Shown here: piece after piece, positions 12 to 20,303 of the stretch
Position numbering within the stretch: position 1 is the first letter of the stretch
Layout: each line of letters begins with the position of its first letter
Virus record (IMG/VR): IMGVR_UViG_3300035698_016964
Span: 1-20,303 of that record
Direction: 5' to 3' (one strand)
DNA from: a virus
DNA: 20,303 bases
Translations under genes and position numbers: made by a program
The notes under the pieces: generated by a model
What the model saw: the letters and a program-made list of their open reading frames with translations, nothing else
Database searches by the model: none
What the model was told of the DNA's origin: nothing

Positions 12-704
12 TTATTTTTGTGCTTCTTGTAATCCTTGTTGAACATTCTTTGGTATCTGTGCATTCATCGTATTATCTATTGCATCATTGATAATATCTT
101 CTGGAACCTGTAAAGTTACTAATATCTGCTTTACAACCATTATCTTTAACTTATATAACAAAACATCAGGAATAGGATATTTATCTGTCCTGGTACTATC
201 ACATAAACTTGTTGGTCCAGAAGTAATTCCTATAAGACATAAATATTTTAATCCTGTAGTTGGAAGATTTTTAAAATATGCTTTACCTCCAATAACAACA
301 TAAATACATTTATAACCTGTCCACTTTCTTTTATTATATGTTTGGAACGATTTAATATTTACTCTGTCATATCCTGAAGTATTCATATTTGTATCTCCTA
401 AGTAAATAATATCTCTATTACCTATCCCTCCAACAACATTTGGTAATTCAGAATACCAATCTACATCTCCTGAATCTAAACTATCACAAACAATATTATC
501 ACATTTTAATTCAATACAACAAGTTTTACTATACCATTGATCATCTAACATTCTACCACTTACATAAGCTTGTTTTAACAATTCATTACGAACATCATTA
601 ATCTGTTCAATAATAAATTCTTCATCAAAATTAGTATCATCAGTATAATAAGGTTTTGTAATCTCTACTATATCATATATTATTTGTTCTACAGTTTTTC
701 TCAT
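12..704 (-). CDS. Ring/adaptor-like head-tail connector protein (putative)
   Basis: A 230-residue protein with ATG start and TAA stop. It has a helical N-terminus (residues 1-50), a central beta-rich part with a Cys cluster (CCIELKC, about residues 62-68), the stretch KAYFKNLPTTGLKYLCLIGI, then YPIPDVLLYKLKIMVVKQIL and a helical C-terminus. This layout and the K-A-Y-F-K-x-L-P-T-T-G-L-K-Y string recall the ring or tail-stabilisation proteins that sit between portal and tail in crAss-like phages; that is recalled similarity, not a search result. Its ATG overlaps the TGA of the upstream glycosyltransferase (ATGA), so its translation is probably coupled to that gene. This is odd for a virion gene. 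Another gene may begin right after it: an ATG lies at 5-3 on the minus strand, leaving only ATGGA inside the window. Structural role likely; exact position in the virion unproven. Confidence 0.6.
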   Translation of the reverse strand: MRKTVEQIIYDIVEITKPYYTDDTNFDEEFIIEQINDVRNELLKQAYVSGRMLDDQWYSKTCCIELKCDNIVCDSLDSGDVDWYSELPNVVGGIGNRDIIYLGDTNMNTSGYDRVNIKSFQTYNKRKWTGYKCIYVVIGGKAYFKNLPTTGLKYLCLIGITSGPTSLCDSTRTDKYPIPDVLLYKLKIMVVKQILVTLQVPEDIINDAIDNTMNAQIPKNVQQGLQEAQK

Positions 705-1705
705 TTTTCTATAGTTATTATTTTATTATCAATTCGTATTTTCTTTTTCTTCTTTTTTCTTCCTTTCTGAAAATCTAATACCGTCCCTATAAATTCAATC
801 TTTAATGATTTCTTCTTTTCTATTTCTACCTTATCTAATAATCTTTCTCTTTTTCTATTAATATAGTAATCCTTCATCTCTAATAACTTGTCTCTTAATT
901 CATATCCTATAATCTCTTCTATCTTTTTTTCTGTAAAAGTAAATAATTTATTTGTCTTTTCAAAATACTTCTCTCTAAACAAAGAAATTTGATTAGCTCC
1001 ATGTGTTGTTAAATTATTATTTATTTCTTCACAATTATCTGAATAAACCCTTAGTTTCTTCTTATTGATGTTTTTAGCTTCATTAAAAAACCAACTATCT
1101 ACCCCAGCATATCTATCACTATTTGGTAGTTGTCTTATAAAATCGCTTCTTAAAGCCATATTAAGCCCTGTTGGTTGTGTCGTAGTATTTTTAGACAATC
1201 TTGTTAAATCAAAATGTAATAACTTCTGTTTAACAATATGAAACATATAACATTGTTCCGACTGATACCAATCATAATCTTTTTCTACAATTTTTTGATA
1301 TGATTTATTAAATTTATATTCAGAAGAAGAATCATCGGCTCCCTGCATTAAAAATATCTTTGATGATTTACTGATATATTTACCTATCATTTTCCATTTA
1401 TGTGTTAATGGAATCCATCTATCTAATGCTATATAAACAACTTTTACGCATCCTGCCTCTTTTAACCTATCTTTATATAGTTTTAATTTTTCTTGTCCTA
1501 AATAGTCCCTTAATTGTTCTTCTGCAATTATTAATTCCCAAGGTTTATCAAAATCTTTTTGACTTATTAAACTTTCTAATGCTAACCATATTATTTGTCC
1601 TGAATTATATGCAGGTAATCCAACACTTAAAATAGGAACTTTATTTTTAATCTCATAAAGAATAATTTCATTATCTAATTTTTTAATATTTAATCCTTTT
1701 TTCAT
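701..1705 (-). CDS. Family 2-like glycosyltransferase
   Basis: A 334-residue GT-A type glycosyltransferase. The N-terminal strand and turn are PILSVGLPAYNSGQIIWLAL (residues 24-43), typical of GT2 nucleotide-sugar binding, and the metal-site region is MQGADDSSSE (about 120-129), where GADDSS replaces the usual DxD. WELIIAEE and the terminal THGANQIS region are shared with the C-terminal third of the next gene upstream (THGANQ versus IHGYNQ), so the two are paralogous. The C-terminus is a basic helical tail with a run of lysines. It presumably transfers a sugar from a nucleotide donor to a virion or host-surface acceptor; donor and acceptor cannot be read from sequence. The ATG at 1705 is used here, but the frame is open and protein-like for about 28 more codons upstream with no ATG, GTG or TTG. 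It ends in TGA overlapping the ATG of the downstream structural gene. Confidence 0.75.
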   Translation of the reverse strand: MKKGLNIKKLDNEIILYEIKNKVPILSVGLPAYNSGQIIWLALESLISQKDFDKPWELIIAEEQLRDYLGQEKLKLYKDRLKEAGCVKVVYIALDRWIPLTHKWKMIGKYISKSSKIFLMQGADDSSSEYKFNKSYQKIVEKDYDWYQSEQCYMFHIVKQKLLHFDLTRLSKNTTTQPTGLNMALRSDFIRQLPNSDRYAGVDSWFFNEAKNINKKKLRVYSDNCEEINNNLTTHGANQISLFREKYFEKTNKLFTFTEKKIEEIIGYELRDKLLEMKDYYINRKRERLLDKVEIEKKKSLKIEFIGTVLDFQKGRKKKKKKIRIDNKIITIEK

Positions 1706-1785
1706 ATTATTGTTTCTTAAATCATTATTAATATAAATTCTTTTGTCTCTTTTTTCTAATCCTAATAATTTATATACTATATCTT

Positions 1786-3984
1786 TTAAACAACAGAAGA
1801 TAATAATATATCTGTTCTAAAATAAGGAGGAATTGGTTGTTCAAGAAATCTTATCCTTGAAGTAATTTGATTATATCCATGAATATCTAATCCTTTTTTC
1901 CAGTTAATAGACTTATCTACATAAATTCGTAAATCTTTTTTCTTATATCTCCTCATCTCTTTCATTAACCAACTATCAATACCACTTTTTAATATCTTAT
2001 TTGATAACTTTTGTAATAATAACCTATTACAAGACATATTTAATCCTGTTATATATTTCCCTTTTTTATAATTAGTTATATCAAATAATAACATTTTATT
2101 TCTTTGAGGATAATAAAAATATCCTTTTAAAGAATGTACCCAATCATATTTTTCATCTGCTATTTTTTTCTTTGCTATTGATAATCTATTAGGATGAGAA
2201 TAACAATCAGAAGATTGTAATAAAAAAACTTTACTTTCTTTACTGCTATTATCATATAATATTTTCCATTTCTCAGATAATGAAATTTTTTTCTGCTGTT
2301 TAATATATTTTATTCTTATACATCCATTTTTTCTTAACCTATCTTCAAACTTATAAATATAATCTTCTCCGCAATAATTTAATTCTTGTTCCTCACAAAT
2401 TATTAACTCCCAACAAAAATTAATATTTTTTTGATTACATAATCCTTCTAAAGCTATCCAAGTTATAATAGCAGAATTATAAATAGGTAATGCTACTGTA
2501 AGAACAATTTTGTTACTATGATCTATCTTTAATAATTCTAATCCTTTTTTTTCTTCTTCAAGGATATTATTATCCATCTTCTTTGTTATATGTCTTGAAT
2601 TTTTACTTTGAACATACTTCCATGTATAATTATCATTATGAACAAATACATTTCCTTCACCTTCTGCTATTCTTAACCATAAATCATAATATGCATAATT
2701 ATTATATTTAATATTAAATGGTAGATATTTTTTTAACTTAGTATAATTAAAAACAGATAAATCAGAAACATAATTACCTTTTAAATGTTTATTATAATCA
2801 TAACTAAAAAATTTTCTTTTTCCTATTTCCTTATTATTTTCATCAATATTTACAAAATTAGAATAACATACTAATTTATCATTTTCAATACATTTACTTA
2901 TTTCTGTTCTTAACTTATTTTTATCCCAAATATCATTAGAAGAAGAATAACACAACCATTCTCCTTTAACTTTTTTTAATGCATTATTTAATTGATAAAA
3001 TATACCAGACTTATCACTTATCACTAAATCATCAATATCTAAATCCTTAACTATATCTATAGATGAATCTCCTTTTGCAGTTGAAAATATTATTTGAGTA
3101 TTAACATTCTGATTTCTTATATTTTTTATAGATGATATAATATTATTTTTGTTTTCTTTATAACTATTTATTATTATAGAAACTAAACTATTATCATAAT
3201 AATCATAATCGAAAAACGTATTTAAAAATAAAATAGATTTATTTATCTCTAAATATTCTCTCATCTTTTCTGATACTTTATTTACATCAACATTATATTT
3301 TCTTTGTTCTTCTATATGGTTTAATATATCTGTTTCATCTTTCCATGATAATGAATTTGGTGTATCTCCATTCCATATACAATTTCTTCCCATTAAACCT
3401 AATTCACAAACTGTATTAGCCAATCCATCATGTTTTGTTAATCTTAAACCTAAAAAACATTTTGTGTAAATATTTTTTAATTGTTCTTCTGTATAAGTAT
3501 TTTTATTAGTTAAATAAATTTTTATATCTGGAAAATTTTTCTTAATAATAGAAAGATAGTTTTCACCATAAAAACTTGGATTTTTTACAGAAGAATACAT
3601 ATATAGACTATCTCCCAAAGAAACAGGTGTAAAATTATTTGCAATTTTAGGATGAATAGGAAATTTTTTATATTTTATATTAAAACCATTTAATTTATTT
3701 TCTATAAAATTTGAAATAGCAATACTATAAATATGAGGATTAGAAGCTATCATATAAGCTATATCTGGATAGCTATATAACAATAATGTATCTGATCCCG
3801 TCCAAATTATTATAACTTTATTTCTATGATTAAATAAATCTTCAATATCAGATTTCTTATTAAAATAACAACCAAAAAAAAGAACAGGTTGGTTTATGTC
3901 ATTATAATCTTCTAAATCATATTTCTTTAAAAAAAAATCTTTAAAGAATTTTACTGATGATGATACACGCGCTTGTTTTATCAT
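1786..3984 (-). CDS. Three-domain glycosyltransferase (GT-B-like + GT2 + GT2)
   Basis: A 732-residue multidomain protein. Residues 1-260 resemble a GT-B type transferase: LGLRLTKHDGLANTVCELG (about 178-196) looks like the acceptor and nucleotide-sugar loop, with WNGDTP after it. Residues 266-460 form a GT2-like domain (SLVSIIINSYKENKNN, GEWLCYSSSNDIWDKNK with SSND in the metal-site position). Residues 490-732 form another GT2-like domain (VLTVALPIYNSAIITWIALE, WELIICEEQ, LLQSSDCYSHPNRL), clearly related to the separate gene that follows. A single polypeptide with three transferase modules suggests stepwise building of a short glycan. The start overlaps the preceding TGA stop (ATGA), giving translational coupling; the gene ends in TAA. 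Its C-terminus may be shortened: a -1 shift at the final GTTGTTTAA would enter the open frame leading into the next transferase. Confidence 0.75.
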   Translation of the reverse strand: MIKQARVSSSVKFFKDFFLKKYDLEDYNDINQPVLFFGCYFNKKSDIEDLFNHRNKVIIIWTGSDTLLLYSYPDIAYMIASNPHIYSIAISNFIENKLNGFNIKYKKFPIHPKIANNFTPVSLGDSLYMYSSVKNPSFYGENYLSIIKKNFPDIKIYLTNKNTYTEEQLKNIYTKCFLGLRLTKHDGLANTVCELGLMGRNCIWNGDTPNSLSWKDETDILNHIEEQRKYNVDVNKVSEKMREYLEINKSILFLNTFFDYDYYDNSLVSIIINSYKENKNNIISSIKNIRNQNVNTQIIFSTAKGDSSIDIVKDLDIDDLVISDKSGIFYQLNNALKKVKGEWLCYSSSNDIWDKNKLRTEISKCIENDKLVCYSNFVNIDENNKEIGKRKFFSYDYNKHLKGNYVSDLSVFNYTKLKKYLPFNIKYNNYAYYDLWLRIAEGEGNVFVHNDNYTWKYVQSKNSRHITKKMDNNILEEEKKGLELLKIDHSNKIVLTVALPIYNSAIITWIALEGLCNQKNINFCWELIICEEQELNYCGEDYIYKFEDRLRKNGCIRIKYIKQQKKISLSEKWKILYDNSSKESKVFLLQSSDCYSHPNRLSIAKKKIADEKYDWVHSLKGYFYYPQRNKMLLFDITNYKKGKYITGLNMSCNRLLLQKLSNKILKSGIDSWLMKEMRRYKKKDLRIYVDKSINWKKGLDIHGYNQITSRIRFLEQPIPPYFRTDILLSSVV

Positions 3985-4967
3985 AAATATTTATTTATAA
4001 TATTATTTAATCGTATTGCTGAATTTGTTATTGTAAATTTTTCTGTCTGTTTATAAATATAATCAGATGTTTGTTTTAAAAACATTCTATCTTTAATACA
4101 TTTTTCAATTAAAAAAAATAATCTATCTTGATTTTGTTTTCTATCTGCATATCTTAAACTATTTCTTCCTAAAAATAAAGGATAATTAATTCCTAAATCC
4201 TCTTCTCTAGCATAACTTTGACCTAATAGAATAGGAATACCACATCTACCACTCTCTTTTACTTTTAAAGAACCGGTAAAATCCCAAGTTAATTCTTTAT
4301 ATCCAGCAAAAGTTATATCACAAGCAGATAAATAAAATGGAACATTCTCATATTTTATATTTTTAACAATAATATTTTTTTTCTTAGGAAAAGTTCCTTT
4401 AGTAATTCCAACCAAAAGTTTTATTTCAGGATATTTTTGTACTAATCTATCCCATATACTTAATAAAAGAGAAGGATAATTAGAAGATACTTGCCTTCCA
4501 AATATACCTATTAAAAATGCTGAATCAATTTCTTTTCTTATTTGAATACATTTTTTTGACTTAACAACATTTAAATTAAAACTATCATCTATAACTTGAT
4601 AAAAACATTCTGTATTAGGATATTTATTTTTACCAATTCCTAAAACAGGATGAAATTTATTTCCTTTTCTTAATCCATCTCTCCATGTTTTACTCTGTGT
4701 AGTTAAGATATTAGTATAATTAAATGCTTCTTCATCATAAGGAGAAGCATAATAAATCTTTAATTTATCTTTTGGACATTTTAATAATAAATCCCTATTA
4801 TTTCTTATTATATAAATATCATAATTATTATGAAAATTTTTATTATTACCTATTGTTACATTAAAATTCTTTTTTAATGCATTAATTATTCCATTTTCAT
4901 TAATAGTATCTCCTCTTGTAGGAATTATCTCATTTACTGAAGATAATTTATAATAAATATTTAACAT
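3981..4967 (-). CDS. GT-B fold glycosyltransferase (GT4-like)
   Basis: A 328-residue protein with two Rossmann-like halves. The second half is the more recognisable: FLIGIFGRQVSSNYPSLL, then IKLLVGITKG, VPFYLSACDITFAGY and finally KVKESGRCGIPILLG. The E-S-G-x-x-G-I-P string matches the donor-binding helix of GT4-type retaining transferases (E, then G and P). No signal peptide or membrane segment is seen, so it acts in the cytoplasm of the infected cell. The ATG at 4967 begins just downstream of the TAA (4971-4973) of the methyltransferase. The TGA stop at 3981-3983 overlaps the next ATG and is followed at once by TAA in the same frame, so read-through would add only one residue. It belongs to the sugar-decoration cassette; the sugar and acceptor are unknown. 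Confidence 0.7.
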   Translation of the reverse strand: MLNIYYKLSSVNEIIPTRGDTINENGIINALKKNFNVTIGNNKNFHNNYDIYIIRNNRDLLLKCPKDKLKIYYASPYDEEAFNYTNILTTQSKTWRDGLRKGNKFHPVLGIGKNKYPNTECFYQVIDDSFNLNVVKSKKCIQIRKEIDSAFLIGIFGRQVSSNYPSLLLSIWDRLVQKYPEIKLLVGITKGTFPKKKNIIVKNIKYENVPFYLSACDITFAGYKELTWDFTGSLKVKESGRCGIPILLGQSYAREEDLGINYPLFLGRNSLRYADRKQNQDRLFFLIEKCIKDRMFLKQTSDYIYKQTEKFTITNSAIRLNNIINKYL

Positions 4968-4970
4968 GTT

Positions 4971-5510
4971 TTACAAAGTTAATATAAAATAATTTTTTAT
5001 TTGTTTTATTTTTAATGGATTTAATTTTTTTATTACATCATTTTTATCTTTAAATAATTGTATATGAGCATAATTTGGTTTGTTAATTGGAATAGTGGCT
5101 AATATTTTTCCATTTTTAGTTAAATATTTTTTCTTTATTTTTCGTATTATATCTAATGGATTTTCTAAATGTTCTAAGACTTCAATAAAAAATATCATAT
5201 CAAATTGCTTATTACAATCATTACTTTTTATAAAATTCTCCAAATTAGAACAAATAAAAAAATAATTTATATATAATTTATATTTTTCAATAGCTTTTAT
5301 TATTCTATTAATCGAATAATCTATTCCCATATAATATACATCTTCAGGTAATAAATTTACTAATCTTCCATCTCCACATCCTAAATCTAAAACAGAAGAT
5401 ATATTTTTTGGAATTTCTAATAAAAGACTATCGTTTAATCCATCATCTAAAAAAGAATGATAATTAACATATTTATTATAATGTTGTATTAAATCTATTT
5501 CTTTCTTCAT
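4971..5510 (-). CDS. Class I SAM-dependent methyltransferase
   Basis: A 179-residue Rossmann-fold methyltransferase. Motif I is VLDLGCGDGRL (about residues 40-50), the acidic residue at the end of strand 2 is MGIDYS (61-66), and the post-motif region is FDMIFFIEVLEHLENPLDI (103-121), the classical E-V-L-E-H signature of small-molecule methylases; KNGKILATIPINKP supplies strand 5. It is short compared with the usual 200-250 residues, so the C-terminal cap looks reduced. The frame extends to a TTG at 5537, but the ATG at 5510 is preferred because it forms an ATGA overlap with the sulfotransferase stop, as the neighbours do. Position between a sulfotransferase and glycosyltransferases suggests O- or N-methylation of a sugar, or of a precursor of the same glycan; the substrate is inferred only. 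Confidence 0.8.
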   Translation of the reverse strand: MKKEIDLIQHYNKYVNYHSFLDDGLNDSLLLEIPKNISSVLDLGCGDGRLVNLLPEDVYYMGIDYSINRIIKAIEKYKLYINYFFICSNLENFIKSNDCNKQFDMIFFIEVLEHLENPLDIIRKIKKKYLTKNGKILATIPINKPNYAHIQLFKDKNDVIKKLNPLKIKQIKNYFILTL

Positions 5511-6178
5511 TTTATAAAATTTAACTTTCGTAACCAAATAAAAAATTCTAAATTATCAATTTCCATTATTTGATTATGAAATTTTGATATAGAATTACTA
5601 TCTAATGGTCTGCGTTTATATTTTGTTTTATCAAAATTCTTTAAATAAGTGAAAGCGTTATCTGGAACAAAATTAGGATAATCAGAAAATTTATATTTGA
5701 TTATTAATCCTAATTTATTAGCAATTTTTCGTTGAACCTTATCAGGATTATTAATTAATTCCTCGTATTTAACTTGAACATCAATAATATCCTTATATAT
5801 TTCTTGTGCTTCCATACAATCAATCCACCTATTTAAATGTTTATTATCATATTCAAATTTTGTTTTATTTTTTGTAAAAGATAATAAAACATCTCGACCA
5901 TCTCTTATAATATTAACTATTTTAATCCTATTCTTTTTAATTGTTTTAATATCATTATCACATTCTTCTTTTGAAAAAATATTAAAAGAATTAGTTAAAA
6001 TATTTTTGCTTGTTCGTTTTGCTATTAAAATATTAACTACTTCTTCAAATTTTATAAAATTTTGTAAACTTATCTCATTATTTTTTACATGAATAATTTT
6101 AACATTTTCAAAAGAATAAAAAAGATATTGTAATAAAGTAGTTCCTGATTTAGCACATCCTGTAATAAATATTTTCAT
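5507..6178 (-). CDS. PAPS-dependent sulfotransferase
   Basis: A 223-residue sulfotransferase-fold protein. The 5'-phosphosulfate-binding P-loop is FITGCAKSGTTLLQ (residues 4-17), with the K-S-G-T-T core of the family, and the 3'-phosphate-binding segment is NIIRDGRDVLLSF (89-101) with the expected Arg, Asp, Gly, Arg, Asp and Ser. The size matches bacterial and viral sulfotransferases that sulfate sugars or proteins using PAPS. It is the first gene of the decoration cassette, preceded by a hairpin that may attenuate transcription (6192-6225). Its TGA stop overlaps the methyltransferase ATG; in the same frame a TAG follows four codons later. It likely adds sulfate to the glycan made by the downstream transferases, but could modify a host surface polysaccharide instead. 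Confidence 0.85.
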   Translation of the reverse strand: MKIFITGCAKSGTTLLQYLFYSFENVKIIHVKNNEISLQNFIKFEEVVNILIAKRTSKNILTNSFNIFSKEECDNDIKTIKKNRIKIVNIIRDGRDVLLSFTKNKTKFEYDNKHLNRWIDCMEAQEIYKDIIDVQVKYEELINNPDKVQRKIANKLGLIIKYKFSDYPNFVPDNAFTYLKNFDKTKYKRRPLDSNSISKFHNQIMEIDNLEFFIWLRKLNFIK

Positions 6179-8926: not shown

Positions 8927-10366
8927 TTACGGTATATAAAGTTCAGCTACTCCATCAGGATCTTTTATTGCTATTCCTGTTTCAGCAAGAATATGAACAT
9001 GTTTACCATCTATAGAATTAGACATATCATCTCCACCTTTATTAATACCATTAACAGTTCCTTTTAAGAACGCTCTCTTTCCTAAAGCTAATAAATCAAC
9101 CATAGGTACTCCAGCATCTACCCCTAAAGAAACGAAAATAGCTCTTCCACTTTCTTTTCTTATTCCTGTTGTAGGATCTACATACTGAGGGCGTGTAGGA
9201 CTATCAAACCATTTATGCCATACAGGAACAAAACGAATACCTCCATATTCATAAGAAACAAAAGTAGAATTGATACCTTTACTTGAACCTGAACCGTCAA
9301 CTAATGATACAGGATTAGCTTTTATCACAGTTAGCATAAGGTCGCTAAATCCAAGCATAAAATCTTGACCTGCAATAACAGCTACTTCCTGAACACCATC
9401 AGAATTACCATATAATTTTAAATTCTTCATCACATTTTGAAGAACACCTTTTGTTAAGGTTCCATTATATTGAAATCTTAAAGCACCATCTCCTTGATAA
9501 AGTAAACCATCACCACCTCTAATATCTCTATTCTTTAAGTCTTTTAATACAACAACATCATTTGATGTAACTGTACCTTTACCAAAGATTAATTGATATT
9601 CTCGTGATGCAGCCCATCTCCTTAACATCTCCATATCTTGATAAGTAGTCCATAATTCTTGACCATTATGTTCTATCCATACTGTGCTTTCTTTCATTGC
9701 TTCAGCTGTTCCACTTATTGACCATTTCATTCTTTGTATAGTCAAATGAGTAGTAGCCATTTCATCGAAAGTATATTTTTCATATGCTGTTTGAGACATC
9801 TCATAAAACATATTATAAACATATCCTATCTCTGCTCCTGAAGCTAACAATGAAGATTCAATAAAATCTTCTGTTGTTTTTGTAACAAGCCTTACATAAT
9901 ATTTCCATTCTCCACCAGCAACTTCTTCTGGAAGCATATCATCAATAACATGAACCAATGTTCTGTTATCTTGTAATTCCAATACATCATAAGGACTATT
10001 CCAATTACTATCAAGATAAATAGCAACCAGACTTTGATATTTTCCTTTTTCTGTCGGATATGCATCACATACTGCATCTCTGGTCATTACATTTTTTCGA
10101 TCTTTTAGACCTCTAACTTTCCATTGTATTTTAGTATTTCCAACGACTTTATAACCACCTGTTGAAGCGGCATCAAGTCCATTATAAAGATTTCCTGATG
10201 TCAATCCTCTATCTGCTAAAATAGAAGAAAAAGCAGTATCATCACTTCTAAATAATGTTGCTACTTGTGGTAATACAGCTGGTTCAGAAATAGCATATTG
10301 CATTAAGTGATGAGACGTTGGTGTCTCATTCGCAAATTGTTTGGGGCGACCCGGTAATATTCTCAT
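8927..10366 (-). CDS. Major capsid protein
   Basis: A 479-residue protein, the expected size for an HK97-fold capsid subunit of crAss-like and related phages. It begins with an extended basic arm (MRILPGRPKQFANETPTSHH), followed by mixed alpha/beta segments; WIEHNGQELWTTYQDMEMLR and RRWAASREYQLIFGKG form the likely spine helix region, and KGINSTFVSYEYGGIRFVPV with GRAIFVSLGVD resembles the P-domain strands. It follows a highly charged scaffold-like gene, and a strong terminator comes after it, as expected for the most abundant virion protein. The start is preceded by a run of A residues and an AT-rich element 12 nt upstream; no Shine-Dalgarno is present. The call comes from size, order and composition; I did not identify the exact family. 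Confidence 0.75.
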   Translation of the reverse strand: MRILPGRPKQFANETPTSHHLMQYAISEPAVLPQVATLFRSDDTAFSSILADRGLTSGNLYNGLDAASTGGYKVVGNTKIQWKVRGLKDRKNVMTRDAVCDAYPTEKGKYQSLVAIYLDSNWNSPYDVLELQDNRTLVHVIDDMLPEEVAGGEWKYYVRLVTKTTEDFIESSLLASGAEIGYVYNMFYEMSQTAYEKYTFDEMATTHLTIQRMKWSISGTAEAMKESTVWIEHNGQELWTTYQDMEMLRRWAASREYQLIFGKGTVTSNDVVVLKDLKNRDIRGGDGLLYQGDGALRFQYNGTLTKGVLQNVMKNLKLYGNSDGVQEVAVIAGQDFMLGFSDLMLTVIKANPVSLVDGSGSSKGINSTFVSYEYGGIRFVPVWHKWFDSPTRPQYVDPTTGIRKESGRAIFVSLGVDAGVPMVDLLALGKRAFLKGTVNGINKGGDDMSNSIDGKHVHILAETGIAIKDPDGVAELYIP

Positions 10367-11921: not shown

Positions 11922-14480
11922 TTAATCTTTTATATGTTCTTTTGTTGTTCGTTGTTTTGGAGCTTGTGATATATTTATACCTGTCCCTTTCTCAGCATTT
12001 TTATCTATACTCTTATTTTCCAGTATAGCATCTATTCTTGTCTGTAATAATTCTATCTGTGCATCTACTCCACTTTGTCTTTTTTTCTCATCTAAATATC
12101 TCATCTCTGTCTCATTCTCTGATACTATTTCCACAACTTTTAATGCTCTCTCTTGGTCTAATTTTTTTATACTTAATGCTTTCTCAAATTCTAATTTATC
12201 TCTATCCATCTGTAATCTTGCTTCTTCTAATTTATTCTTTACCATCTCTAATTGAGTTTTCTGGTCCTGAATAATTTTATCATATTCAGCTTTTAATTTT
12301 ATCTCTGTTTCTTTTAATTTTATTTTACCATCACTTTCTCCTTTAGCTTTTTCTAATTCAAATTTTTGTGCTGCTTCTGAAAATTCAATAGCTTTTCTTT
12401 CTAATTCTTTTATATTTTGTGTACCATAAATTCCTATTAATTGTTGTATCTGCATTCTTCCTCTAGAAAATTCCATCTCCGACATTGTTTCAATCTTTTT
12501 TATCTTCCTACTTATCTCACTATTTTTATCAACAAATATTTCTACATCTGCTTTATCTGTTACTCCTTTAGGAATATTTATAATCTCTTGCCTAAAATCA
12601 TCTCCTACGTATGCCAATTGTTCTCCATCTTTCCAAACTATTTTATTTTGTATGTTCATAAGGCGTGTTAAAGCCTTTTTATCCAGTTCATCTTGTTCTT
12701 GATAGTAATGGTCAATAATTAATAAAGATTGTTCTTGTGCCATCTTAGATGTCTCTACTGGGTCCTTAGAAACAAATTGTCCTTTTGCTTGTCTCGGAAT
12801 ACCTAACATATCATCTACAGTAGCTTTTAAACTTTCTTTTAAAGCTCCTAAATATTGTATAGCAGGAGATAATGTATCATCATAAGAAGTAAATTGATTA
12901 AACATTGGTGTTCTTCTGCCTTTTTTTACTGTTTGAATAAATCCTACTCCTATTTTTTTAAGATAACTAAATTCTTTTATACTCATTCCTTCAGGAAGCT
13001 GTGATTTATCCATAATAAATCCTTTAGTACCTGATAAGGCTAACATTAATTCTTCATGATAAGAAACAATATTATAAAGTATCTGAATATCTTTTGTTGC
13101 TAATATGGGAGAATAAGGGTCTTCAGTTATTGAAGAAAATGATTTTCCTATAACAGGCAATTCTACTCTTGATAAATTATCAATACTTCTTAATTGTAAT
13201 TGTTTTTTACCTAACTTCTTATATACACAACCAGCAATACAATCTCCTGCATAAATATCATTAATATATCTTTTACTAACTTTATTCCTTTTATTTGTTT
13301 TATCATATTTATTTTCTTCTGTCTCATTTTCAAAATGAATAATCTTAGTATCATCTAAATGAGGATGAAGCTTTTCCTTTATTTTTACTTTACGCTGACT
13401 TTTCCAAAATACTCTCCATACATCTACTCCATCAGAATCATAATCAGAAGAACCAGAATATAATTCTTTATTAAATACTGCTGTATTACCTTTATAATTA
13501 TTTATATTATTTCCTAATTGAGTATAAGCACTTCTTTTTTCTATATTTTTTATTTCTTCTGTTGTTAAATCATAATTCTCTATTATTCTTGATAAACTTT
13601 GTTTTTCTAAAATAGCAACCCATGTACCATCTTGAATCCATTCATTATCTCCATCATTACTCCAATATGTTTTTACTGAATTTAACGCTTCATAAGTAGC
13701 ATAATCATTTCCTTCTTCCCAATCAACAAAATAAAGAGGTTTTCCTGTTATCATCTTATCCGTAAAAGCTTTTTTACTCTTTAACTTAATATCTAATTTT
13801 CTTTTTAAAACTTCTAATCCTTTTTGTGTTACTTCTTCAACTAAATCTCTATAATCATATTTGTAATATTTTTCTATTTTATCAATTTCTTCTTTTGAAA
13901 ATAATGCTTCTCTTTGTATCTCTCTCTTCATTATACTAAATGAATTTAATACCTTTACTTTCACTTCTTTTAATTGTTGTAATTTAGCTAATTCTTCTTG
14001 TGATTCAGGTTTCTTCTGTATCATCTGCATAAACTCCTGTTCCTTCTCTTGTATCTGCATTAATTGTTCTGTGAGTTTATCATATTTCCTTTGTATCTTA
14101 AATCGTATCTTATCAAGATATTCTTTAATTTTTGCATTCTCTTTATTGGAAATAGATTCTTTATCTATAGTAAAAGCGTAAAAATTATAAGGTTGTAACA
14201 TTTTTTGATTAATAACCCAATTGATAGAAGGTCTAACAATACCTATCCATCGCATCTTTGCAGGATAAGTATAAGTTACATTCTTTTTACTTTCTGTTAC
14301 TTGCGTTAAATAATTATAATCTTCCTGAGTGAATGTTTCATAATATAATTTATAACATAATATATCTTTAGCTTTTACATCGTTTCCTGCTGTTGCAATC
14401 TTAATAATATCATCTATTGTTTTTATACAAAATTTATCATCTTTTTTGTTTTCAGGTATTAATTGATTTTGTAATGACAT
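11922..14480 (-). CDS. Portal protein with long C-terminal coiled coil
   Basis: An 852-residue protein placed between terminase and scaffold/capsid genes. Residues 1-110 form the N-terminal region (YPAKMRWIGIVRPSINWVIN). Residues 115-205 are an inserted helical hairpin rich in Gln, Glu and Lys. YDYRDLVEEVTQKGLEVLKR through the segment ending ITGKPLYFVDWEEG (208-257) resembles the wing and stem entry of crAss-like portals. Residues 545-590 carry KATVDDMLGIPRQAKGQF and ETSKMAQEQS, the helical segment ahead of the crown in that group. Residues about 640-810 are a nearly continuous coiled coil, compatible with an extended barrel or internal head structure, and the tail is flexible. It is larger than typical portals (450-750). 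The ATG follows a poly-A leader 12 nt after the terminase stop; TAA stop. Confidence 0.8.
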   Translation of the reverse strand: MSLQNQLIPENKKDDKFCIKTIDDIIKIATAGNDVKAKDILCYKLYYETFTQEDYNYLTQVTESKKNVTYTYPAKMRWIGIVRPSINWVINQKMLQPYNFYAFTIDKESISNKENAKIKEYLDKIRFKIQRKYDKLTEQLMQIQEKEQEFMQMIQKKPESQEELAKLQQLKEVKVKVLNSFSIMKREIQREALFSKEEIDKIEKYYKYDYRDLVEEVTQKGLEVLKRKLDIKLKSKKAFTDKMITGKPLYFVDWEEGNDYATYEALNSVKTYWSNDGDNEWIQDGTWVAILEKQSLSRIIENYDLTTEEIKNIEKRSAYTQLGNNINNYKGNTAVFNKELYSGSSDYDSDGVDVWRVFWKSQRKVKIKEKLHPHLDDTKIIHFENETEENKYDKTNKRNKVSKRYINDIYAGDCIAGCVYKKLGKKQLQLRSIDNLSRVELPVIGKSFSSITEDPYSPILATKDIQILYNIVSYHEELMLALSGTKGFIMDKSQLPEGMSIKEFSYLKKIGVGFIQTVKKGRRTPMFNQFTSYDDTLSPAIQYLGALKESLKATVDDMLGIPRQAKGQFVSKDPVETSKMAQEQSLLIIDHYYQEQDELDKKALTRLMNIQNKIVWKDGEQLAYVGDDFRQEIINIPKGVTDKADVEIFVDKNSEISRKIKKIETMSEMEFSRGRMQIQQLIGIYGTQNIKELERKAIEFSEAAQKFELEKAKGESDGKIKLKETEIKLKAEYDKIIQDQKTQLEMVKNKLEEARLQMDRDKLEFEKALSIKKLDQERALKVVEIVSENETEMRYLDEKKRQSGVDAQIELLQTRIDAILENKSIDKNAEKGTGINISQAPKQRTTKEHIKD

Positions 14481-14492
14481 ATTTTTTTTTTT

Positions 14493-16493
14493 TTAAATAT
14501 GAATAATATCTTCACCCATTTTCTGATATCCAATATCAAATACATCTATTTCTGCTTCTTCTATCAACTCTCTATTCATCATTGTTTCTTTAAATTCTTC
14601 TAAACAAACTACATTTAATGAAGTATGTATAGTAATATCACAATTATATCCTTTTTGTAATCTGTATTTTGCTAATGCTTCTATCTGCTCACAATCAAAC
14701 ATTTTATCTACATTGGCATAATCATCTTTAACTAAAAATTCTTCTAATAACATTAACCAATGAATTTTTGTACTCGGATCTATTCCATATCTATTTGACG
14801 CTTTACTATCTTTTATCCATGTTGAAGTCAGGAAAGCAGGTTTTTCAACTAACAAATGTTCAAATCCTTTTCTCTCATAAAAACTTGCTAACAGAATTTT
14901 ACTCCATTCAAGAAGATTTAATGCATTGAAATAAATCATTAACTTAATTGTTTTTTCATAAAATTTTTCTGCTCCTCCAAATAATGTTCCATCTCCTTCT
15001 GGTCTAACAGTTATTCTTGCTACCCACATATTATAAGTATTCTTAGCATTTAAAAACCCTTTTAATATACCACAAGAACCTTTTGATTCTGATGTCTGAC
15101 TTTCATTTACATCATAACTATCTGTAGCTCCAAAATAAAGATTATCAGGAACTTTTCCATCTACATCAACATTAGGTCTCTCAACAATAAATATATCTTC
15201 TTTCCCAAATCTATCTGCCCCAGGATGAAATTTCATTCCTTTACCCCAATCCGAAGGATCATTTTCTACCAAATGACCATAAACACCAATATCTTCTTCT
15301 CTATGAGATTTAATATAAGCTCTTCTTCTACTTAATGCATCTCGTAATCCAGGACTAAAAAAACTTCCTGAAATGACTTGAAATGCTTCTGAAGGATTAA
15401 ATGGTTTTTTAGCTTGTAGTTCTAATAATTTCTTTCCTTTTTTCTGATTTCTTTCTTCTTGAAGTTTTTCTACACTTTCTTTTTTTAATGTATTACCATC
15501 TTTATCAACTTTTTCAAATTCCCATCCAGGAGTAAAAGAAGCTGTATTACTCTCTCCTTCTTCGTAAACATTTTTAAACTCCAATAAATTATATTCAGCA
15601 GGATTATAAAACATTTCTTCTACATCTGCAACTCCTCTTTCCATATCACCACCGGTTGCAATAATATATTCATATCCTGTCTTTATTCCCTCAGCTTCTA
15701 ACGAAGGATCAATAAATCCTTTTGCTGCTAATAATATATCTCTTTGCCATTTTCCTCCTTCTTCCATAATAACCCAATAGGGAGTTAATCTTGAAACTGC
15801 TTCTGGATTATTTCTTGCTGTAAGAGAATATATTGTAGATTTAAAACCTTTAACTTGAACTCTTTTTCTTCCTTCATCATCTATTATTGTTTCTTTATAG
15901 CTTGCTTTTTTAAAATCTGATTTATCAGGACTTCGCTCTTTATAAAATTCTGTCTCAACAAGTCCATCAAGCATTCTTTCTGTCTTTAAAAATAATGCTT
16001 CACTATCGTCATCTACTCCTGCTACAATAACATTTACCGATGCAGGAACAAATGTAAAATTATAACATAATCCTGCTCCTGCAATAAATTCACTAAATCC
16101 CTTTTGGCGCGCTTTAAGTTCAAGATTATCTTTATCCTCTGCTACCATTAATTCCATACGATATGCTTTCTTAAAATCTAAAGAAGTAAATCGTGGAGCA
16201 ATCTCTCCTTTAATTTTTGTGCCTTTCTTTAAACCATAAATAGAACAAAAATTAAGATAAAAATAATGTCTGCCGGTAATAGTTATATTATCTCCTTTAT
16301 TCGTAGCTTTATTTACCACATATCCTTCTAAACATCTTCTTCGTTGCTCATTCCACCATAATACATAAGCATCATAATCATCCTTATTAGGCATATCATT
16401 ATCATATATAACAGGACTAAATCTTTCTGTTTTAATAAATTTAATCTTATCTACGTATAACAATAACTTTCTTATATCTTTTGCATTATTCAA
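14493..16493 (-). CDS. terL: Terminase large subunit
   Basis: A 666-residue DNA-packaging motor. The N-terminal ATPase shows a degenerate Walker A, KARQKGFSEF (residues 127-136, R-x-x-G-x-S), a Walker B YWVIMEEGG (239-247) with catalytic Glu, and the coupling motif IIATGGD (277-283). The C-terminal RNase H-like nuclease begins at NLYFGATDSYDVNESQTS (451-468) with the first metal Asp; HLLVEKPAFL (546-555) and MFDCEQIEALAKY (598-610) provide later acidic residues. The D-S-Y-D-x-x-x-S-x-T-S pattern recalls crAss-like terminases. It would cut and translocate the concatemer into the portal. The start is unusual: TTG at 16493, preceded directly by an in-frame TAA; the next ATG would remove 33 conserved-looking residues, so TTG is preferred. 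It follows a small membrane-protein gene by 7 nt. TAA stop. Confidence 0.92.
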   Translation of the reverse strand: MNNAKDIRKLLLYVDKIKFIKTERFSPVIYDNDMPNKDDYDAYVLWWNEQRRRCLEGYVVNKATNKGDNITITGRHYFYLNFCSIYGLKKGTKIKGEIAPRFTSLDFKKAYRMELMVAEDKDNLELKARQKGFSEFIAGAGLCYNFTFVPASVNVIVAGVDDDSEALFLKTERMLDGLVETEFYKERSPDKSDFKKASYKETIIDDEGRKRVQVKGFKSTIYSLTARNNPEAVSRLTPYWVIMEEGGKWQRDILLAAKGFIDPSLEAEGIKTGYEYIIATGGDMERGVADVEEMFYNPAEYNLLEFKNVYEEGESNTASFTPGWEFEKVDKDGNTLKKESVEKLQEERNQKKGKKLLELQAKKPFNPSEAFQVISGSFFSPGLRDALSRRRAYIKSHREEDIGVYGHLVENDPSDWGKGMKFHPGADRFGKEDIFIVERPNVDVDGKVPDNLYFGATDSYDVNESQTSESKGSCGILKGFLNAKNTYNMWVARITVRPEGDGTLFGGAEKFYEKTIKLMIYFNALNLLEWSKILLASFYERKGFEHLLVEKPAFLTSTWIKDSKASNRYGIDPSTKIHWLMLLEEFLVKDDYANVDKMFDCEQIEALAKYRLQKGYNCDITIHTSLNVVCLEEFKETMMNRELIEEAEIDVFDIGYQKMGEDIIHI

Positions 16494-18298: not shown

Positions 18299-20303
18299 TT
18301 ATTTTGTTAATTCATTTGAGCTACCCATAGTATCTCTTTCTAAATGAATTCCTGTTTGAGTAATAAAAACCCTATCTCTATATTCATTTCCACCAGTTGC
18401 AACAATTCTCTTAACTCTTATTTTAACTTGCGCTCCTATTAAATAATTTGTTAAAGTAACTGCTCCCATATCTAAATAAAAATTATGCAATGCAGCGGAA
18501 CCTGTTGGAATCGTATATTCAGCACTTAACACAGCTTGTTCTACCCAGACTTCATCGTTATCAGCACAAGCTACCCATACACTAAATTTAGCATAGCTAT
18601 CTGTTCCTGAATCTTGTAGTTTTGCTATAGAAAAATGAACATGAGCATGTCCTTCTGTTCCTTCTTTCCACCAATGAGGAAGTTCATTAGCTTGTAAATC
18701 AATATAATCATTAACTTTAAAACAATATTCATTTGTATTTGCAGTAAACGGTTCCCATGTTGGAAAATTAGAAGATGGAACTTTAGCATTAGAAATAGGA
18801 AATTGCACATCTTCCCATACCCTCGCTGTTCCTACTAAACTTAAATGTCCATTATTAGCAAAAGAAGTATAATTAGTAGCTTGATCTCCTAATCTTGTTG
18901 CTCCAACAATATGTAATTCTGTTTGAGGAGTTGTTGTTCCAATTCCAACTTTTCCAGTTTCATCTATAGTTACCTTAGGAACAGTTCCATATCTTATTCG
19001 AAGTTTATTTGAATAATCAATATATCCATAAGCCCCATCAGTATGAAAATCTAAATTCTGCCCCCCTGTATCTTGTAATCTTAAAGTTGGATTTGATGTT
19101 GCTTCAATATGAAGTTCTTTTAAAGGAGTTGTTGTTCCAATTCCAACCCTACTATTAGCACCATCAACATAAAAAATATTTGCTCTTTTTCCATCTCCAA
19201 CCCAAAGATTTCTATATTGTGTGTTTGCTCCCAAATAACCATCATAATTTATGTAACCTGTTCTTGTTGCATTTATAGTAGGTGCAAAAACAATCTCATC
19301 ATTTATTGCAATATTTCCATAAACATCTAATTTTTCATAAGGTGTTGTTGTTCATATCCCTAGTCTTGCGTTAGCTATATCCCGAAAGAAATTGGCGTTA
19401 TCTTGTGCTAGATTCGTTCAATCAGAAAATACTACACTACCTGCTGTTAGTGAGGTTGTCAAACTTTCTACATCTGGTAGTGATGTGGCTGTATGTGTAT
19501 GTCATGGGTTTGCTCCTGTTGTTACGTTAGCTCATGTTACTGTTGTTGCTGCTACTGTACCTGTTACCGTTACTATACTACTAATGGTATCTATAGTCAT
19601 AACATTCGTACTAGCATCAGCTTTGTTGAAATTGAACGCTGTAGCGTGGTCTGCACTAGGATAGAAAATTGATTGAGCTAGATATTTAGTTCTACTTAAT
19701 GAATCTATTGAATATAAGAAATTTGAATTAGCATTGTTTAATTGAAATACATTAGCTCCTGCATTATCTGAAAGTTTATACTGTATATTACCAGCACCTG
19801 TCGCATTAGCTTCTACTACATAATTACCACCAGTCCATCATACTACCCAATAAGGATTACTACTAGGATTATTACCATAAAATATTCTAGCAGTATTATC
19901 TGTTAAATATAAATCAGCAGCATTAGCTTTTATACTGCCGTATGTCTCTAACGCTATCGCTCAACCATTGATATATACTTTACTTCAATCCCAAGTAAAA
20001 TTGGCACTCCCTTCTAAAGTTCAAGCATTAGAATAAACAACATGATTATCAGTTATCCCTGATATGAAATTAGCTCATGTTATATTTCAAGCAGTTGTTA
20101 AATTATAGTTCCCTGTTCAATCTGTTCACGATAGAAAATGTCAAGCATTGGTTATGCTTCGTCTGTCTGTGTTATTGGTTATGAATCATATATCAAAATT
20201 ATCTATAGAACCTAATGTCTTTTTAGCTCATAGAGTATTTCAGTTTAGTCTCCAAGTATTTAATGTATTTAATCATGAATCAACCCAAGCAGGTGTTCAG
20301 TCA
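18299..20303 (-). CDS. Tail-fibre protein, 5'-partial, with TGA read as glycine
   Basis: The frame is open from the window edge to TAA at 18299 if TGA is sense: 18 in-frame TGA codons (19352 to 20299) and no TAA or TAG. About 667 residues are visible. N-terminal part: W-R-L-N-G-N-T-L-G-A-K-K-T-L-G, GNITGANFISG, FTWDGSKVYING and GANPGHTHTATSLP, all common in fibre shafts and tips. Then three G-I-G-T-T-T-P repeats, each followed by a short beta segment (YEKLDVYGN, LKELHIEA, TELHIVG). The last 140 or so residues, from VQFPISNAKVPSSNFPTW through HWWKEGTEGHAHVHFS to LERDTMGSSNELTK, form a C-terminal beta domain widespread in phage fibres. It probably binds the host surface. With standard code the only start is TTG 19234 inside the shaft, with no start signal, giving a 311-residue stump. 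GGA is the main glycine codon below 19340; above it TGA (18) and about 16 GGN codons share the role. The N-terminus is outside the window. Confidence 0.85.
18927..18949 (-). repeat. Direct repeat coding G-I-G-T-T-T-P, copy 1
   Basis: A 23-bp stretch identical to 19125-19147. It encodes the fibre motif V-G-I-G-T-T-T-P with glycine as GGA. Confidence 0.9.
19125..19147 (-). repeat. Direct repeat coding G-I-G-T-T-T-P, copy 2
   Basis: Identical to copy 1 over 23 bp, again with GGA for the second glycine of the motif. Confidence 0.9.
19341..19363 (-). repeat. Diverged copy 3 of the G-I-G-T-T-T-P repeat with TGA for Gly
   Basis: The first 13 bp on the plus strand match copies 1 and 2 except for one base, then it diverges. 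The codon that is GGA in copies 1 and 2 is TGA here (19354-19352). This is where the TGA-containing part of the fibre gene begins. Confidence 0.85.

Follow-up and report, generated by a model that had tools for sequence, protein, structure and literature searches.

TGA-coded glycine at the end of a crAss-like phage contig: a tail-fibre frame most likely drawn from two genomes

Can a single phage gene need a genetic code that the rest of its genome does not use? The question is raised by the end of IMG/VR record IMGVR_UViG_3300035698_016964, analysed here over 20,303 nucleotides (the window), where a minus-strand frame runs from the contig end at 20302 to a TAA at 18299 and stays open for 667 codons under code 25, the code in which UGA is glycine. 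Two parts of this frame and the point where they meet are distinguished below.

19352..20302, minus strand: fibre-type coding segment, open at its 5' end, in code 25 (18 TGA as glycine, 16 GGN), delimited from the TGA columns, codon usage and homologues
18299..19351, minus strand: 3' part of the crAss-like phage's own fibre gene, in the standard code, with two GIGTTTP repeats and a C-terminal domain
19339..19357, minus strand: junction of two genomes in the LGI-G-TTTP motif, TGAACAACAACACCTTAT, placed by codon-usage change-points and the last TGA at 19354

Reading of TGA in the terminal fibre segment

Codon counting bears out the preliminary description in that the 317-codon frame at 19352-20302 (minus) contains 18 TGA codons and neither TAA nor TAG. 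The TGA codons are located at 20299, 20275, 20242, 20230, 20188, 20143, 20128, 20119, 20089, 20077, 20023, 19987, 19963, 19840, 19534, 19504, 19420 and 19354; all 18 therefore lie at or upstream of 19354, and the last 350 codons of the longer frame have none. The other two minus-strand frames over the same interval hold 35 and 33 TAA/TAG codons. When 20,000 sequences were simulated with the dinucleotide composition of 19352-20302, none of the 60,000 frames was free of TAA and TAG, and a frame contained 6.9 TGA on average. The TAA/TAG-free, TGA-rich frame is not a product of chance. The contexts quoted in its first account were also correct: a TGG directly adjoins a TGA (codons 155-156, TGA then TGG), and GGA stands in two sister repeats where the last TGA stands.

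The residue encoded by TGA was addressed by aligning the TGA columns to homologues, as had been proposed, with each TGA masked (X) to avoid bias towards glycine or tryptophan. At least one homologue covered 17 of the 18 TGA columns, and the BLOSUM62 sum over these 17 was +40.1 for glycine, +3.0 for serine and -42.1 for tryptophan, the last of which was found in no homologue at any of them; the earlier judgement that TGA is unlikely to be tryptophan thus stands. Glycine occupies the last TGA column (317, LGI-G-TTTP) in 86 of 87 homologues and column 295 (FS[DN]-G-T) in 66 of 89, and the GGN columns of 19352-20302, used as a control in the masked alignment, behave like the TGA columns. Most of the remaining TGA columns are covered by one to four homologues each, and glycine is rare or absent among homologues at columns 39, 62, 94, 114, 155, 257 and 267. 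Since some columns are thinly covered or poor in glycine, the case for glycine rests on the BLOSUM sum and the well-covered columns. Taken with the code-25 phage fibres that carry TGA at the same columns and with the Gracilibacteria relatives, both described below, the alignments uphold the assignment of code 25, and TGA in 19352-20302 is best read, on comparative grounds, as glycine. No tRNA and no Rfam family was found in the window.

Two genomes within one frame

The remainder of the window is predicted to encode the virion genes of a crAss-like phage.

14493..16493, minus strand: terminase large subunit (TerL), Crassvirales-like, from phrog_6681 and named crAss-like genomes
11922..14480, minus strand: portal protein, Crassvirales-like, from phrog_6547
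8927..10366, minus strand: major head protein (MCP), Crassvirales-like, from phrog_11589 and named crAss-like genomes

TerL and MCP are crAss-like at 23-29% identity to their best named genomes, and peptide patterns retrieved no close relatives of TerL in IMG/VR. Judged by TerL, portal and MCP, which are those of the order, positions 1 to ~19350 are classed as Crassvirales-type. Between the virion genes lies a block (701-6178) that is more AT-rich (~18-25% G+C) than its surroundings and whose genes, inspected by eye, are apparently glycosyltransferases and other transferases.

TGA-coded glycine is confined to the contig end. The 18 window genes outside the fibre contain no TGA in 5811 codons, and none of their 304 glycines is encoded by TGA, compared with 18 of 34 in the fibre piece (Fisher p = 7e-21); TGA is thus not a sense codon genome-wide in the phage of the window. 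Three of these genes end in TGA (701, 3981 and 5507; minus), all in ATGA overlaps with the start of the next gene, the usual form of stop-start coupling. Each of the three stops is backed by an in-frame TAA or TAG within four codons, for which the base order of the window itself gives an expectation of ~35-37% per TGA and ~0.05 for all three, and as a result code 25, too, could formally be used to read the crAss-like part.

The change in code coincides with a change in the use of all other codons. Synonymous codon usage was scanned for change-points with TGA left out, comparing outside models with the window's own genes. Models from AT-rich Gracilibacteria and from two code-25 viral contigs (L110 and L111, below) win up to codon 315-316, by a log-likelihood of +14 to +30, and lose after it, by -29 to -48, placing the change-point at 19354-19357, at the last TGA. 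A scan with no outside model placed it at codon 322 (19339), a value reached in 0 of 200 permutations. Models from GC-richer Gracilibacteria regions did not win in 19352-20302; because only those from AT-rich Gracilibacteria and code-25 phages do, the piece would derive from an AT-rich code-25 genome. The 3' part of the frame fits the crAss-like genome in its codon usage, and its C-terminal domain shares 54-59% identity with L082-L084. The genetic code and the codon usage thus change jointly, over ~20 bases, in LGIGTTTP. Since the codons for every other amino acid change in usage at the last TGA too, two genomes meet inside the frame, and the proposal of a fibre that needs code 25 in a phage with standard-looking virion genes finds no support.

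The same switch bears on two explanations that would leave the gene in one genome. Recoding of late genes is known in Crassvirales, where TAG=Gln or TGA=Trp has been reported (PMC7886860), and the crAss-like phage might itself read TGA as glycine or tryptophan with a suppressor tRNA. We consider this very improbable: TerL, portal and MCP are also late genes and are free of TGA, tryptophan fits no TGA column, the window has no tRNA, and the shift in codon usage at the last TGA extends to all other codons. The reported recodings thus differ from the window, where the virion genes are unrecoded and the TGA columns are those of glycine. Less credible still, to the point of being negligible, is a pseudogene or sequencing artefact, a standard-code fibre gene whose GGA or TGG codons turned to TGA; a single base separates TGA from either, but the frame shows zero TAA/TAG and zero frameshifts over 317 codons, its TGA codons fall at glycine columns, and its synonymous usage of other codons differs too. 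TGA as tryptophan, a pseudogene and sequencing error were all rejected on the codon-usage switch, the glycine columns and the open 317-codon frame.

Code-25 relatives of the fibre segment

Phages using code 25 have already been described, and the window piece resembles the code 25 of Gracilibacteria, Absconditabacteria and their phages in having TGA at glycine columns and for about half of its glycines, 18/34 (PMC10746230). In such phages TGA is spread across most genes, whereas in the window TGA-coded glycine is restricted to the terminal 0.95 kb of the contig, all else being in the standard code. A pattern for the TGA-coded fibre motif matched the window and no viral contig. A looser TGA-specific motif pattern matched two IMG/VR contigs from two metagenome data sets, L110 (IMGVR_UViG_3300022857_000636) and L111 (IMGVR_UViG_3300023245_001286), which are alike over their shared part and use TGA as glycine in TerL, a portal/connector gene, a helicase, an endolysin and the fibre. 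Their fibre frame has 47 TGA codons and the motif SVAFSN[TGA]TTLAEDNANFFFDDTNNRLGL[TGA]TNTP, in which the TGA codons occupy the same two columns as in the window fibre; in the L111 fibre TGA encodes 46 of 89 glycines, a share like that of the window piece. The stretches of L110 and L111 that were examined contain no tRNA. With code 25 throughout and fibres of the same type, these contigs are the ordinary form of the TGA-coded fibre noticed in the window.

In a separate observation on the two contigs, the major capsid gene (L110 5189-6404, L111 2051-3266) has no TGA among its 35 glycines, while TGA accounts for 157 of 320 glycines in the other genes (Fisher p = 4e-10), a pattern suggesting that TGA is avoided in the gene with the highest expression.

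Gracilibacteria genomes were reached by way of the TGA-coded motif GHVDHGKTT, and in them related long surface fibres occur, with TGA in the same frames. In the regions sampled, the TGA share of the window piece falls within the range found, and its codon usage fits the AT-rich ones. Among 353 genomes of the Gracilibacteria class searched there were three weak relatives of the code-25 piece and no near-identical source, and tblastn found no match to the piece among named phages. One of the Gracilibacteria genomes (G058) carries, from position 9875 of L099 onward, a frame of 2282 codons with 78 TGA; its product is a surface-type protein that begins like a signal peptide and contains many GNVGIGT repeats of phage-fibre type.

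Origin of the join

The motif at the junction is widely shared. Phage fibres carrying AQDNANFF / LGIGTTTP, among them phrog_5906 and those of many IMG/VR contigs, have the same motif and repeat layout as both sides of the junction, and ~80 relatives encode the motif glycines as GGN, with TGA in L110 and L111 only. In 2296 pairs of otherwise unrelated contigs (that is, with unrelated far flanks), exact runs of at least 21 bases were present in 498 and of at least 31 bases in 122, nearly all in the fibre motif, the longest motif run being 83 bases.

We propose, with a probability of about 0.8 and from sequence comparisons, that the contig is an assembly chimera of a crAss-like phage and a code-25 fibre piece, and that what is drawn as one tail-fibre gene most likely combines two genes from separate genomes. 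Positions 1 to ~19350 would be part of the genome of an environmental crAss-like phage that uses the standard code, and positions ~19352-20303 a piece of a fibre-type gene, with TGA as glycine, taken either from a phage of Gracilibacteria or Absconditabacteria or from a surface fibre gene of one of these bacteria. Both sources would encode the widespread AQDNANFFWDxTNNRLGIGTTTP, with little difference at the DNA level between AT-rich genomes; the assembler most probably crossed between the two fibre genes along the stretch beginning GAACAACAACACC, the contig then ending near another recurring fibre motif, GTPAW. With the two genomes meeting next to a shared motif, 0.95 kb short of the contig end, a chimera explains the join without new biology. 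It is preferred since the motif bridges unrelated contigs and the foreign 951 bases stand at the contig end, since a standard-code host would stop fibre synthesis at the 18 TGA codons, and since benchmarks found as many as about 5% of large viral contigs to be chimeric (PMC5610896). The window resembles such chimeric contigs of viral metagenomes (PMC5610896) in that its genome of origin changes abruptly, near the contig end, next to a stretch that many contigs share; for the window the change is read from composition and code. Against a chimera, the stretch plausibly common to both sources is ~13 bases from the motif alone, longer overlap being plausible, the join is in frame as in a functional recombinant, and searches, which may have passed over near-identical records, returned no near-identical source of the code-25 piece. 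The data show TGA as glycine, two compositions and the place where they change; that the assembler rather than recombination made the join, and how long the shared stretch was, we infer from these comparisons.

An actual recombinant, in which a crAss-like phage gained the 5' part of its fibre at LGIGTTTP from a code-25 phage or bacterium, is the less probable reading, and we hold it unlikely. Such a fibre would either depend on a code-25 host for its synthesis or be broken. An in-frame join at a homologous motif is what such an exchange would leave, and the TAA/TAG backing of all three TGA stops, by which the phage is formally readable in code 25, is weakly in its favour. Moreover, Gracilibacteria are the predicted hosts of some reported phages that have several stops at gene ends and no in-frame TGA, and some of the predicted Gracilibacteria-infecting phages free of in-frame TGA group with Bacteroidota phages (PMC10746230). 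Such an exchange would have had to occur between phages of very different hosts and leave codon usage unadjusted afterwards, and it is at odds with the lack of TGA-coded glycine in any virion or other gene of the window and with the termination that the 18 TGA codons would bring about in a standard-code host. The junction 26-mer matched no viral contig, and no second contig with the same junction was found. A more specific form, a natural recombinant whose crAss-like virion genes are readable in both codes while the 5' half of its fibre is made only in a code-25 Gracilibacteria cell, seems more doubtful again.

Were the hybrid gene real, it would be a single open reading frame needing a code different from that of the rest of its phage genome, which would be new, and it would tie a host-range protein to code-25 hosts, making the genetic code a host-range switch within one gene. 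Under the assembly chimera that we prefer, the hybrid gene is most likely not a real feature, and the code-25 piece alone would be a further instance of known code-25 DNA. On the evidence, the finding is a caution that conserved fibre motifs act as exact-match bridges between unrelated viral genomes, and clusters of in-frame TGA at contig ends should be checked for a concurrent shift in the usage of other codons before recoding is called.
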